DNA from: Halieaceae bacterium
GTDB taxonomy: Bacteria > Pseudomonadota > Gammaproteobacteria > Pseudomonadales > Halieaceae
Assembly: GCA_902631395.1 (NCBI GenBank)
Contig: CACOYM010000001.1
Span: 124,001 to 188,000 of the forward strand
DNA length: 64,000 nucleotides
Reading direction: 5' to 3'
Under the pieces are notes generated by a model. The model saw only the letters and a program-made list of their open reading frames with translations, was not told the origin of the DNA and did not search any database. Positions 57,988 to 64,000 of this stretch are shown here, one piece after another (position 1 is the first letter of the stretch; every line of letters starts with the position of its first letter). The translations under genes and the position numbers were made by a program.

Positions 57988-58078
57988 GGAGAAGTGGCCG
58001 AGTGGCTGAAGGCGCTCCCCTGCTAAGGGAGTATACGTTAATAGCGTATCGAGGGTTCGAATCCCTCCTTCTCCGCCA
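57988..58078 (+). tRNA. serX: tRNA-Ser (anticodon GCT)
   Basis: The 91-base gene begins GGAGAAG and ends CTTCTCC-G-CCA, so the acceptor stem is complete and CCA is encoded. The anticodon stem CTCCC/GGGAG flanks the loop with GCT at 58022-58024, reading AGC and AGT. The long variable arm (GTATACGTTAATAGCGTAT) and the T arm GAGGG-TTCGAAT-CCCTC are typical of class II serine tRNA. It is usually next to csrA in this group. Confidence 0.96.
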
Positions 58079-59318: not shown

Positions 59319-59446
59319 CGTCAGCTCATGCGCAGAACGGGGGAAATAGATATGTTTGATTGGTTTACGGAACTCAGCGGGTTCCCACAACGCCGGAAAG
59401 GAAACGGGCCATCCCAATCCCACCCCCTCATATATCTAGACGATGT

Positions 59447-60532
59447 TTATTTGGTTTTGCTGGCATATATGTCGTCCAGTATGGCAAAGAGATCTTCGTT
59501 CGGGTTTTTCAACCAAACCTCAAAGTTATCAAGGTATGTTCGGTAATCAACCCCGAACTGCCTTAGGAAAGTAGCCTCAAAACCCAGTTCGTCGACTGCC
59601 TCCCAAAAATCGTACAGCGCGTCCTCACCATGCACGCTTGTCAAGTACGCCACGAACCAGCTGCCAAGCCGATATCCCAAGTCTACCAAGTCTCCTTGAT
59701 CCCAAGATATGTTTCTAAGCTTCAATCCCTCGTCTAAAAACTTATCTTTTCTAGATACGGAGAAAGGCCCTGTGCATTCTAATGCGCATCGCATCTCGCT
59801 TTTGAAGCCCTCCGCGTCTCTGCTGTAAAGAGCGCCGAAAAAGTCTGCATTTCCCTCCATCCACCAAGGCACAAGTATTCTCGGATCATCTCCGGACATT
59901 CTGCCCATTTTCGAGTCAACCTCTTCGTAACTGTCCGAAAACACATTCGACATTTGATAAATATGGAACACCTCGTGATACGCCATGGCTTTATAACTAT
60001 CACTGGCCACTCCATCTCCCTTGGTAGCGATGACCATAAAATAGAATCCCTCTACCGGCCCCGAAGAATTGATGCCGGCTCCTCCATTCGCAACGTAGTC
60101 AATATATGTATCCGGGTTGCACCATTCGGCTACTGAAAAGCCCGTATTACTTAGGTGATCACAATATTTTTGATTTGCGACCTTACTCGCGTCCAAATCT
60201 TCCCCCGTGATCATCAGATAGATCGCTTTGGCTTGGTTCTTTCCGTAATAGGGAGACCCCATCCATAGCTCATATGCTTCGTTGGTGTAGTGAACTGTTG
60301 TCTCAATTTCATCTTGGGATAGGTCTGCTGCTGCAAATACTCGCATGCGTTCATCGTCGAGAAATGCTTGAGAAGCATCTGGCGAATTAACTTTTATGCT
60401 ACTTGAATCGATCGAGCCCGAACCTAGGGCTGACAACGTCCCTAGGAGGTTAAGAAAGGCCCGCGACGAGGCGCTCGCGCCCTGGCACTGAATAACAAAA
60501 ATGGCAACAACACAAAGAATTAGTGGCTTCAC
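59447..60532 (-). CDS. Exported gluzincin-like metallopeptidase
   Basis: A 361-residue exported protein from GTG 60532. This gives a normal signal peptide (KPLILCVVAIFVIQCQGASA); a TTG 18 codons upstream is less likely. The motif HEVFHIYQ at 186-193 is HExxH, and E226 in WWMEGNADFF is at the spacing of the third ligand in gluzincins. It should be a zinc peptidase acting outside the cytoplasm. Four or more cysteines suggest disulfides. Its substrate is unknown. It is convergent with the FliG-C-like gene. Confidence 0.75.
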   Translation of the reverse strand: MKPLILCVVAIFVIQCQGASASSRAFLNLLGTLSALGSGSIDSSSIKVNSPDASQAFLDDERMRVFAAADLSQDEIETTVHYTNEAYELWMGSPYYGKNQAKAIYLMITGEDLDASKVANQKYCDHLSNTGFSVAEWCNPDTYIDYVANGGAGINSSGPVEGFYFMVIATKGDGVASDSYKAMAYHEVFHIYQMSNVFSDSYEEVDSKMGRMSGDDPRILVPWWMEGNADFFGALYSRDAEGFKSEMRCALECTGPFSVSRKDKFLDEGLKLRNISWDQGDLVDLGYRLGSWFVAYLTSVHGEDALYDFWEAVDELGFEATFLRQFGVDYRTYLDNFEVWLKNPNEDLFAILDDIYASKTK

Positions 60533-60893
60533 AACAGCACTCTTTGTTGGAATTGTTCTTAAATATAGCCGGCCCCCCGCCTTCAACCAAATTAGCCAGG
60601 TATCGTCAATGCAGTGTCTAAATCGCGCTGCACAAGGGTGTTGCCGGCGATGTGTTGTGAGGTTCCTGTGTCATCTAATGCATCGGGGCGTTAACCATCA
60701 TGATCTCTGCGACAAACAGCGCTCCTGCCCAATGGTCACCATCAAGGGCACCTGATTTGAAAGACTAGTTGGACAGCGGTGAAATGGATGGCTGCTGGTT
60801 CAACTTCCTTGCTTAGACAAAGGGGCCTTAAACATTGGTTTTTCGTTGTAATATCGGGCAGCGGCGCGCAAACAGGGCAAAAGTGGGGTTCTC
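60533..60893. other. Intergenic region without a convincing gene
   Basis: About 360 bases of divergent promoter region between the metallopeptidase gene and the gene at 60894. No ORF with family similarity and no operator of the families above was seen. Confidence 0.5.
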
Positions 60894-61511
60894 ATGATTA
60901 GATTTTCGGCGCTATTTTTTGTTCTTTTCTCTACCAATGTATTTGCTCGCCCCATTACAGTTACATACGAGGGTGTCGCATCTGGGTCACTAGATGGCGC
61001 CGCATTCACCAATGTAGCCTTCACAATTATTGGCAACGCAGATACCGGGAGCCTGGAAGGTAGTGGTTGCGGCCAGCTCGTCGTTCACCAAAGCACCACA
61101 GTTGCGCTCGACGGTCTTGGCGAGTTTAGATTTCTAACTGGCGGAATGCAGGGATATGGCTCGAACCGGAACGGGACCGCACTGGAATTCATGCAGTTTG
61201 ATGGGAATGGTTTAGGAACCGGCCTAGTCACTCTCAGAAAAGCGCCCTGTGTCGGCGACGATATTTTTAACTATCAGACGGTGAGCAGTTCTATGGATAT
61301 CAGATTCTGGGGCGACAATCAGTTTGCAAGCGAAGTAATGACTGACGCGGGAAGACTTATATTCAATGATGACCTAGGCAATACGCAGGGTAGTCGGACG
61401 CTCACCTATCCCCCGCCGCAACCAATTCCAGTGATGTCCATTTATCTGATATTTTCTTTGGCTGGACTGCTCGCTCTCTTTGTGCAGTCAAGAGTCAGGT
61501 TCTTAATGTAA
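60894..61511 (+). CDS. Exported protein with IPTL-CTERM-like sorting tail
   Basis: A 205-residue protein with a signal peptide (MIRFSALFFVLFSTNVFA) and a mainly beta body with glycine and asparagine turns. The last 30 residues are a proline-rich stretch (PPPQPIPVMS), a hydrophobic helix (IYLIFSLAGLLALFV) and a basic end (QSRVRF). This tripartite tail resembles IPTL-CTERM sorting signals, which are cut by exosortase-like enzymes at the cell surface. No exosortase gene is visible. It precedes the ubiquitin-like gene by 155 bases. Confidence 0.68.
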   Translation: MIRFSALFFVLFSTNVFARPITVTYEGVASGSLDGAAFTNVAFTIIGNADTGSLEGSGCGQLVVHQSTTVALDGLGEFRFLTGGMQGYGSNRNGTALEFMQFDGNGLGTGLVTLRKAPCVGDDIFNYQTVSSSMDIRFWGDNQFASEVMTDAGRLIFNDDLGNTQGSRTLTYPPPQPIPVMSIYLIFSLAGLLALFVQSRVRFLM

Positions 61512-61601
61512 TTCCTTGCAAGCGGGATTGGCACGTCCCGTTAATTACACTATCTCGGAATCTCAGCCCCATGCGCTTTATTAAAGCCAAAGGGGATTCT
61601 T

Positions 61602-61664
61602 ATGATCGCTTATCTACAGTTCTACTTTTCGCTGCGGATTTGGCATTGCGACTTTATCCACTGA
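61602..61664 (+). CDS. Possible 20-residue leader peptide upstream of the ubiquitin-like gene
   Basis: A short frame starting at ATG 61602 with AAGGGG seven bases upstream (61590-61595), ending in TGA 61662-61664 two bases before the ATG of the ubiquitin-like gene. The spacing TGA-CC-ATG is that of translational coupling. The peptide (MIAYLQFYFSLRIW...) has no recognisable function. It may serve to bring ribosomes to the next start, which has no good ribosome site of its own. Confidence 0.4.
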   Translation: MIAYLQFYFSLRIWHCDFIH

Positions 61665-61666
61665 CC

Positions 61667-61879
61667 ATGAAGTTTTTCTTTACGACGCCCATGGGTAAGA
61701 TCATCGTCCTTGGGGTGGATTCCCTGAATAGCATCGAGAATGTGAAAGCCAAGATTCAAGATAAGGAGGGCATTCTGCCCGACCAACAGATGTTAGTATC
61801 CGACGAATCTGTCCTAGAGGATGGTCTGACGCTCTCGGAGCACCATATGGCTAAGAGGACACTCCGACTGCGCGGTTGA
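61667..61879 (+). CDS. Ubiquitin-like protein, close to eukaryotic ubiquitin
   Basis: A 70-residue protein that aligns along its length with eukaryotic ubiquitin. The stretch IENVKAKIQDKEGI (residues 23-36) is identical to ubiquitin, followed by PDQQ, LEDG and TLS; by hand alignment about 41 of 70 residues are identical. Lysines 11, 27, 29, 33 and 63 are kept; 6 and 48 are Thr and Ser. About five residues of the last strand (around ubiquitin 65-70, with V70) are missing, and the chain ends LRLRG, one glycine short of the mature GG tail. An in-frame ATG at 61571 would add 32 residues with a hydrophobic segment (LSTVLLFAADLALRLYP), possibly a signal or anchor. No conjugation genes are near. A recent transfer from a eukaryote is the simplest explanation. 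Confidence 0.85.
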   Translation: MKFFFTTPMGKIIVLGVDSLNSIENVKAKIQDKEGILPDQQMLVSDESVLEDGLTLSEHHMAKRTLRLRG

Positions 61880-61941
61880 GGTCGTCTTGGGCAACCGCAG
61901 TGATGATTATTCAGTTTTGAGACTTCAGGGGATTTCAACAG

Positions 61942-62229
61942 ATGAAATATCGACTGGCAACGATTTTATCGTGGCTGGCATTCCTCAACGCTATCATGGT
62001 CATAAATGTCCCTATCTTCATTGTGGTCTGCAGTAAGTGCGATATGTTTGAGAGTAAAAGCCTCTACTATCGAGTTACCATGGGATACTTTGATTTGCTG
62101 GCGACACTACCCGGCCAGGGATTATGGTTGTTGTTTGGGCTTTCGCCGGCAATATGGGTTTTGCTTTTCATCTGCACAGGAAGGTTCAGAATCGTACCGT
62201 GGCGGCACGCCGAAAAGGCCAAGGAGTGA
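61942..62229 (+). CDS. Small membrane protein
   Basis: A 95-residue protein with hydrophobic segments at about 5-30 and 52-80 and a basic C-terminus (RFRIVPWRHAEKAKE), so it likely crosses the inner membrane twice. A Cys pair (CSKC) lies between the segments. AGGGG stands upstream of ATG 61942. Its stop overlaps the start of the next gene (TGATGATG), so they are cotranslated. No family recognised. Confidence 0.65.
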   Translation: MKYRLATILSWLAFLNAIMVINVPIFIVVCSKCDMFESKSLYYRVTMGYFDLLATLPGQGLWLLFGLSPAIWVLLFICTGRFRIVPWRHAEKAKE

Positions 62230-62636
62230 TGATGAGATCTCTAATTGCAATTGTCACACTGATAGCTTGCGCGGGGGCTTGGGCAGAGCGACTCAACGCC
62301 AATTGCTCGTTTGAAAGGGCCATCGAATATCGAATGGCCAATGGAGAGTTATACGCTGATGAACTCAGTCAGTGGGGGCCTATTCCGATCATGACCATCG
62401 CTAATAGCATCACCTCATATGATCCAGACGGGGACGATAAGAACTTAGCAACAATAAGCTTGATGTGGACTCGGGTGGGCTTAGACAATGTCTGGAGTAT
62501 TTGGGCCGGTGATTTTGGGGACTTACTAACCATTCACAGCACCGATGAACCTATGGGGACATATACAGCCACGTTACAGTCCTCCGATGTGGGTGGCGCG
62601 CAAACCTATATCGGAACGTGCACCGGTAAGTTTTAG
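62229..62636 (+). CDS. Small exported protein
   Basis: A 135-residue protein with a signal peptide (RSLIAIVTLIACAGAWA) and two or more cysteines in the mature part (NCSFER, GTCTGKF). The start is one of two ATGs, at 62229 or 62232, directly after AAGGAG and overlapping the preceding stop. It is translationally coupled to the membrane protein before it. No family recognised. Confidence 0.65.
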   Translation: MMRSLIAIVTLIACAGAWAERLNANCSFERAIEYRMANGELYADELSQWGPIPIMTIANSITSYDPDGDDKNLATISLMWTRVGLDNVWSIWAGDFGDLLTIHSTDEPMGTYTATLQSSDVGGAQTYIGTCTGKF

Positions 62637-62723
62637 TCGCGCTCGCTGTTTACCTTACCGTTTAAAGGGAGACGGGACTCAAGGCGCATTTTGCCCCATG
62701 CGGTCTGTTAATGTCGATCAGGT

Positions 62724-62915
62724 ATGGGAATGATAAAAAAAATACGGTCGACGATATGGTGCTGTGCGGTCGCAGCGCCGATGGTCTGGGTGTTTGGGTA
62801 TATCGATGGCTGGGGATGGATCCTACAGGCCTGGGCCATCGGCTTTGCCTTGTATGTCGCGTGGCATATATGGACCGATGGCACATCTGACCCATGGCCG
62901 GGGCGCGAGGAGTAA
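62724..62915 (+). CDS. Small membrane protein
   Basis: A 63-residue protein with two hydrophobic segments (about 10-26 and 31-49), rich in tryptophan, and an acidic-basic tail. TCAGG precedes ATG 62724; ATG 62730 is an alternative. It stands alone after the exported protein. No family recognised, so this is the least sure of the small genes here. Confidence 0.5.
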   Translation: MGMIKKIRSTIWCCAVAAPMVWVFGYIDGWGWILQAWAIGFALYVAWHIWTDGTSDPWPGREE

Positions 62916-63132
62916 TTCCCTCTCGTCAGCCGGCGGGTTAGCCCCTGAGAGATACGATAGCCTTGGACTGGGCGATATCGGTTCCACCATGTATTCCCCT
63001 TGCTCAAACAACCGGTAGTCGGCGAGGGTGCCACCTTGATGGTATTTGGCGGCAGGGTGGGCCGAGCAATACTGGCCCTGCCATGGAACACCTTCTAAAG
63101 CGATGAAGTAATCAACAACACGCCATCAGATG

Positions 63133-63894
63133 CTAAAACTGTTTATGGATCTTTCTATCCAGGCCTGGCTCATTTACTAGAAAGTCTCTGGGTGCATCTT
63201 CTGCAACGCCATGGATGGACTGTAATGTGGCGAGATCAAGATCGGTGAAAAATCCAACCGGTCTATCGGACGACTTATATGCCATAACAGTGACAGAATC
63301 GTCAGCGGATTTGCTACCCCATGGCTCGTTTGAATACAAGCAGTCCCCATCACTGTCATCAAATGGATGCTCCAAACCCAAGGCATGACCGAGCTCGTGC
63401 AAGAACAGCAGTACGGGTTGTCCCTCTAATTCTAAGACTCCATTGCATCCGTTAAGGAGCAGATATGCCTGATCGCCGAACTCGTTATCGGCTACCATTC
63501 CGGTCGTGTCGCCATCTTCACAAACACCGATAATTACAATATCAGCCTCGCGTCGGCTCGAGACTTCGTTAAGCTTTAGGTCAATGTAAGTGTTAACACG
63601 AGAAACTAGTTCATTGGCCTTGTCGATTTCTTCTGGATAAAAGGGATCTGAGCGCACAACTGCAAGAAAAGCGCCCTCCTGATATATCCGATAATTACGG
63701 ACGGTTTGCTCAAACACGTATCCAATTTTCTTTCTACCATCAAGAAACGCCAAGTCTTCATCTACCCAAGAAGATCTAAGGACATCCAGACTTTTTTCAT
63801 CTTTCGTACAACTCGAATCTGCAGAGATAGATACGCTTGAGAACATCGAAACAATAATCAACACTCTCAATATGAATAATTTTTTCTTCTTCAC
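63133..63894 (-). CDS. Exported metzincin-type metallopeptidase
   Basis: A 253-residue exported protein from GTG 63894 with a strong GGAAGG site. The signal peptide is KKKKLFILRVLIIVSMFSSVSISA. The zinc motif HELGHALGLEH at 166-176 is HExxHxxGxxH, and VTVMAY around 201-206 gives the Met-turn with M204, so it is a metzincin (matrixin/serralysin-like). The end TDLDLATLQSIHG is also family-like. It should cleave proteins outside the cell. The region is AT-rich. It lies in the same stretch as the gluzincin-like gene and the ubiquitin-like gene, on the opposite strand to the latter. Confidence 0.85.
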   Translation of the reverse strand: MKKKKLFILRVLIIVSMFSSVSISADSSCTKDEKSLDVLRSSWVDEDLAFLDGRKKIGYVFEQTVRNYRIYQEGAFLAVVRSDPFYPEEIDKANELVSRVNTYIDLKLNEVSSRREADIVIIGVCEDGDTTGMVADNEFGDQAYLLLNGCNGVLELEGQPVLLFLHELGHALGLEHPFDDSDGDCLYSNEPWGSKSADDSVTVMAYKSSDRPVGFFTDLDLATLQSIHGVAEDAPRDFLVNEPGLDRKIHKQF

Positions 63895-64000
63895 CAGCTT
63901 TCCTTCCTATAGCTCGTCGGAAAAAAGTTTACGCAATTCTACTTAAACATCCTATTGTTTGATTAGATTTCTATAGCAACTGGAACAAATAAGTACTCAA

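Follow-up and report, generated by a model that had tools for sequence, protein, structure and literature searches.

An open frame for a ubiquitin-like protein in the genome of a Halieaceae bacterium is, with a probability of about 0.8, a degenerate extra copy (pseudogene) of a gene for an exported bacterial ubiquitin. The frame lies in a stretch of 64,000 nucleotides, hereafter called the window. This reading is based on the presence of an intact-looking second copy (L001) in the same genome, with leader and signal-peptide DNA in common with the window copy, on the start codon lying 65 and not 66 bases before Met1, a 3' end that matches the relatives at offset -1 and the lack of a C-terminal tail, on the damaged or weakened look of three of the five other copies in the genus (L012, L013 and L008), and on an ω of the window branch about 5–15 times the background, ω = 1 not being rejected over codons 1–41.

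The ubiquitin copy and its displaced frame

The product scored 46.8 bits against the Pfam ubiquitin family (PF00240, E 2.6e-12), above the curated cut-off of 25.4 and thereby within the family, and matched single-ubiquitin chains in PDB at about E 1e-15, a likeness to ubiquitin far exceeding chance. Compared with human ubiquitin, 35 of the first 63 residues are identical and 28 differ; the stretch IENVKAKIQDKEGI is identical to ubiquitin and most core hydrophobic positions are retained in the protein alignment. Position 48 is Ser, confirming an observation of the original prediction, and F45, Y59 and G47 are also changed, while codons 1–60 contain neither stops nor indels. The proposed likeness to ubiquitin was upheld by these matches, as was true ubiquitin ancestry, and descent from a eukaryote-type ubiquitin is supported by the sequence (Table 1).

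Table 1. Features of the window around the ubiquitin copy
Feature	Position	Strand	Remarks
tRNA-Ser (GCT)	57988..58078	+	upstream of the variable stretch
Upstream neighbour, secreted-looking protein with hydrophobic C-terminal tail	60894..61511	+	tail DNA matches the tail of a gene on contig C10
In-frame upstream extension, apparently a decayed signal peptide	61571..61666	+	A-x-A missing before Met1; hydrophobic run contains Asp and Arg
Ribosome-site-like AAGGGG before ATG 61602	61590..61595	+	inside the leader common to L001
ATG at the site of the L001 signal-peptide start	61602..61664	+	20 codons out of frame; ends two bases before ATG 61667
Residual ubiquitin open frame, 70 aa	61667..61879	+	ATG to TGA, open throughout; codons 1 to ~60 in the ancestral ubiquitin frame
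Frame end, read KRTLRLRG and stop	61853..61879	+	in alignment with relatives, its DNA is shifted by one base against the reading frame
Downstream neighbour, 95 aa	61942..62229	+	without a Pfam match at E 0.1; related DNA at other places in the genome and the genus, in two cases downstream of tRNA-Ser genes

The 130 bases before Met1, comprising leader and signal peptide, match those of L001 with a z of 11.3 against shuffles, whereas z ranged from 0.4 to 5.2 for eight other relatives, and judged by this leader DNA the window copy descends from the gene of an exported bacterial ubiquitin. The suggested link with export therefore holds for its line, which appears to have been built for export. 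With 65 bases from start codon to Met1 in place of the 66 in L001, the ATG following the AAGGGG opens into 20 foreign codons, with a stop at 61664. L001 has nothing corresponding to the other in-frame ATG (61571), and the peptide read from this ATG shows an 11-residue hydropathy mean of 2.13, compared with 2.28–2.89 in five relatives, and ends with PLT, not A-x-A (signal peptides were judged by hydropathy and small residues, without a signal-peptide program). The hydrophobic in-frame extension pointed out in the original prediction is thus real but looks like a ruined signal peptide.

At the other end of the gene, an in-frame deletion of about five residues with LRLRG retained had been proposed, but the MAFFT protein alignment, where the end is placed as T66-L67-R-L69-R-G, needs a gap of one residue. 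When the DNA of codons 63–72 was compared with seven relatives (L001, L004, L005, L008, L011, L012 and L013) at all offsets between -8 and +8, the summed identities were 103/210 at offset -1 versus 60/210 at offset 0, the 99th percentile of the maximum over offsets in 2000 shuffles being 97. Offset -1 was the sole best in five of the seven (L001, L004, L005, L008 and L012) and tied best in L011 and L013; over codons 63–79 it was best in all but L013, its lead in L011 and L012 being a single identity. Because the DNA of the relatives favours this offset, the likeness to LRLRG is probably accidental, KRTLRLRG probably lying outside the ancestral frame, and a second one-base displacement is probable near codons 60–63. 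With the frame displaced, a purposely altered C-terminus is not supported, and the argument that an intact frame speaks against decay is misleading since a shift before Met1 is probably followed by another near codons 60–63 that leaves the end outside the ancestral frame. The window copy has no in-frame LRLRGG as a conjugable end but LRLRG with one Gly, and no hydrophobic basic-ended tail follows codon 63 in either frame.

A ubiquitin fold was predicted for the product by AlphaFold2 (13 sequences) with a mean pLDDT of 83.4, and Foldseek gave the model a TM of 0.93 to a ubiquitin variant; for the ubiquitin part of L001 the block means were 91–95, and such models are no test of stability. Structure prediction, proposed earlier as a check of the shortened strand, thus still closes the fold, but the last strand of the model (residues 65–69) is made of displaced-frame residues.

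The second copy, its relatives and the genomic surroundings

In the whole genome (2.30 Mb in 60 contigs, completeness 88.8%, contamination 0.3%) Pfam ubiquitin was matched three times, the two matches above the cut-off being the window copy (45.4 bits in this search) and L001 (contig C17, 1429–1863; 111.4 bits). The precursor of L001 consists of a signal peptide ending with AVA, ubiquitin from its own Met1, the sequence LRLPEAAP, a hydrophobic stretch and arginines, and its ubiquitin is identical to the human one in 61/63 residues. With a signal peptide in frame and a cleavage motif directly before Met1, L001 has the sequence features of an exported ubiquitin.

A recent transfer into this genome alone, as originally suggested, is contradicted by the distribution of the gene, found in 11 of 140 genomes of the family, six belonging to the same genus (own genome included) and five to four other genera. 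In the samples of the order and the class the counts were 6/390 and 2/369, the own genome being counted each time. Only 2–4 of 63 residues differ from human ubiquitin in L001, L004, L005 and L008, the four undamaged-looking genes of the genus, none of which has RGG at the ubiquitin end. L008 has ATC at the expected start codon, L012 has two stops inside ubiquitin and L013, with 14/63 residues changed (49/63 identical), looks weakened. Since some members match human ubiquitin in 62/63 residues, as in L093, an ultimate origin from a eukaryote is likely. The window copy shares the ubiquitin core with L004–L014 of the family and L015 of the order, and with L001 also the leader and the signal-peptide DNA, but while these relatives are mostly intact-looking, L001 and L004–L014 being tailed, it is broken and located elsewhere. 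One family genome (G017) carries two exported ubiquitin genes, L007 and L014, one of them more diverged.

The tails of L004–L014 are hydrophobic, basic-ended and of VPxLP or IPALP type, that of L001 being hydrophobic and basic-ended without the VPxLP motif, and they resemble IPTL/PEP-CTERM signals. In L006 (1414–2184) the precursor continues into a choice-of-anchor U domain (NF041766, E 1.8e-26); its match to midcut_by_XrtH (E 0.034) is below the cut-off. Searches for exosortase with PF09721 and TIGR04177 gave no match in the 88.8%-complete own genome. A non-ubiquitin gene on its contig C10 (L058, 3514–4167) codes for a secreted-looking protein with a VPALP-type hydrophobic tail like those of the exported ubiquitins, and the tail of the upstream neighbour of the window copy (60894–61511), with IPVMS, is also of this kind; with no exosortase found, the two tails may represent an unrecognised sorting signal. 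Among nine ubiquitin loci run through Rfam the sole match at gathering score was an IMES-1 RNA (121 bits) on the minus strand at L001 3–182, on the same contig as the intact-looking gene and outside its leader.

In intact precursors of this family, a signal peptide with its likely cleavage site directly before Met1 is followed by the ubiquitin fold, a linker or domain, and finally a hydrophobic basic-ended tail, which should serve as an anchor in an envelope membrane or as a sorting mark. With RGG replaced, the product would serve as a displayed or released ubiquitin fold and not as a protein tag and, by analogy with the secreted BfUbb of Bacteroides fragilis, may target bacteria nearby. As the start of the window copy is out of frame with the signal peptide, the cleavage motif is lost, the frame slips again near codons 60–63 and the tail is gone, most likely no exported protein is made from it.

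The window copy is situated 3.6 kb downstream of the tRNA-Ser, among short genes whose relatives are differently arranged in other genomes. Just upstream, a stretch of 1.1 kb (59448–60540) is 81% identical at the DNA level to a second genome of the genus, confirming that the flank belongs to the genus and that it is bacterial, as first assumed. A search with the DNA of 59400–64000 in 57 genus genomes (own included, many incomplete, up to five candidate places scored in each) gave some match in 18, while the ubiquitin part was found only in the own contig C17 and in G091 and G106, all at other places. Ubiquitin DNA joined to the window flank was thus found in none of the other genomes of this set. 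Among the matches listed, the ubiquitin gene stands beside the same genes in five other genus genomes; vertical orthology with this locus was rejected, the own genome having a shorter gap there and no ubiquitin match. Positions 60748–60841 contain a dispersed repeat found as 48–91 bases with 79–96% identity in 11 of the 57 genomes, one being the own genome, on another contig. On the own contig C11 (L055, 4021–5231) a tRNA-Ser (GGA) is followed by a relative of the downstream neighbour (61942) and then by 25–39 bases resembling the 3' end of the window tRNA-Ser and the DNA after it, which looks like an integration site.

Prok-JAB gave no match (E up to 0.01) in the 88.8%-complete own genome and the one ThiF/E1-like match is on another contig, which rejects a conjugation operon; the prediction that no E1 or JAB gene is near was borne out by these searches and by Pfam on seven neighbouring proteins. 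A phage origin was also rejected, tblastn with L001 giving no match in 50,697 phage records; of 72,556 plasmid records three matched, the only clear case being from Ruminococcus albus (73% over 62% of the query) and the other two being weaker.

Selection and alternative explanations

Codon models were fitted to seven sequences over 63 codons, giving an ω of 0.004–0.006 for the background and of 0.02–0.06 for the window branch, rough values since the fits are multimodal, synonymous sites are saturated and the branch bounds differ slightly between fits. For the whole branch ω = 1 was rejected (p 0.0028 and 0.0225 with two topologies, 0.0032 with two others having the same fit), and so was the background ω (p 0.014, 0.003 and 0.0001). 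When the gene was split, ω = 1 was not rejected for codons 1–41 (p 0.49 and 0.80) and was rejected for codons 42–63 (p 0.0001 and 0.02), which drive the overall rejection and in which synonymous change is saturated; background ω was rejected only for codons 1–41 with one topology (p 0.0005, otherwise 0.07–0.21). Neutrality from the start is rejected over all codons and we therefore propose decay after a functional period, and because of the saturation and the multimodal fits the codon result is taken to suggest relaxed selection with a functional past and nothing further.

The window copy grouped with L013 at 95% bootstrap in a codon tree of 26 sequences, where its branch is at the upper bound; both branches are long and two replacements are common to them. 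The signals conflict, as the ubiquitin codons favour a group with L013 and L008 by roughly 9 log units, itself a rough difference, while the leader favours L001, so that a single origin from L001 is supported by the leader but not by the ubiquitin codons. This conflict speaks against the pseudogene reading, as do the two of seven relatives that do not single out offset -1, the absence of stops and indels in codons 1–60, the fold still being predicted, and the rejection of ω = 1 over 63 codons, although the gene may have been functional over a long part of the branch.

The same rejection, together with the mostly kept core hydrophobic positions and the fold predicted at a pLDDT of 83, would also suit continued expression of a retooled cytoplasmic protein with a ubiquitin fold and some binding partner in the cell, made by a start at 61602, a stop at 61664 and a re-start at the ATG two bases on to give 70 residues. 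The ribosome-site-like sequence before 61602 and the closeness of the stop to the next ATG are in its favour, but this arrangement occurs in none of the relatives examined, 28/63 residues deviate from human ubiquitin as against the 2–4 of L001, L004, L005 and L008, the changes include F45, Y59 and G47, the end is out of frame and the flank has no ubiquitin DNA in the other genus genomes (57 with own, many incomplete), and we regard it as improbable. More improbable still is the original idea that a secreted product with a purposeful change of its C-terminus inhibits host ubiquitin or acts as its decoy, a role for which there is a precedent in BfUbb, described as secreted without terminal glycines and as inhibiting ubiquitination in vitro (PMC3352274), and to which the true ubiquitin ancestry would be suited; here the start codon does not read into the signal peptide, which lacks a cleavage motif, and the LRLRG is probably accidental. 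Eukaryotic contamination or a mis-binned contig can practically be dismissed: some of the 80 scanned loci described below look eukaryotic (L068, L088, L107 and L136), but the window copy is in a contig of 271 kb with a flank 81% like the genus, neighbours and tRNA are bacterial, and the leader matches that of the bacterial paralogue L001. The pseudogene reading is thus preferred.

A wider family of probably exported ubiquitins

A scan of bacterial and archaeal genome contigs, using a query alignment that included the window copy, gave at least 592 stretches, of which at least 388 were confirmed as relatives, a number at odds with the rarity originally assumed. The best 80 of these at least 388 were inspected, four repeating already known genomes (L059, L063, L112 and L135), and ubiquitin could be placed by motif in 76. 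Among these 76, a signal-peptide-like sequence (a hydrophobic stretch with small residues at -1 and -3) directly precedes Met1 in 66, and 65 have at least 50 residues beyond residue 72; LRLRGG is present in 14 of the 80. Four (L068, L088, L107 and L136) have no signal peptide and show LRLRGG or poly-ubiquitin, and look like eukaryotic contaminants. Clostridia, Verrucomicrobia, Saccharibacillus, Cohnella, Dyella and Prochlorococcus are among the groups given in the record titles. On balance it seems probable that the window copy is what remains of a member of a large and patchy class of bacterial proteins, secreted or on the surface, with a eukaryote-type ubiquitin, the native Met1 as mature N-terminus and varied C-terminal extensions, the extension types being mostly judged by eye, with a domain scan for L006 only. 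No description of such a wider class was found in titles and starts of abstracts of open-licence PMC papers, which is weak evidence of novelty.

Bacterial ubiquitin-like conjugation systems include Bil and CBASS type II. They have a ubiquitin fold in bacteria in common with the window copy, but this is a eukaryote-type ubiquitin of an apparently exported line, in a genome with no Prok-JAB match and with its sole ThiF match on another contig. BfUbb, encoded by ubb of Bacteroides fragilis, was reportedly described in 2011 as a unique homologue. It is characterised in PMC5705921 as secreted, cleaved exactly before Met1 and without a terminal glycine, and as antagonising a subset of B. fragilis strains, and in PMC3352274 as a secreted ubiquitin without terminal glycines whose recombinant form inhibits ubiquitination in vitro. 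As described there, it resembles the exported family in its eukaryote-type ubiquitin, its signal peptide directly before Met1 and its lack of terminal Gly-Gly, but is a free secreted protein, while the intact-looking members of the genus continue into a hydrophobic C-terminal tail. The window copy differs from BfUbb in having its start out of frame and no cleavage motif before Met1, and has lost the tail of its genus relatives as well.

The window copy itself is probably dead and of little weight, a broken copy being ordinary, but through it intact-looking exported ubiquitins bearing tails of membrane type came to light in the genome and the genus, and the wider family, with at least 388 relatives under the titles of unrelated bacterial groups, is surprising. 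If the class is real, BfUbb would be just one, tail-less example of it, and the free Met1 common to the class would point to a common partner reading the ubiquitin face or the N-terminus. If ubiquitin has repeatedly gained a signal peptide before Met1 and been put on display, the role of extracellular ubiquitin would become a general and testable question.
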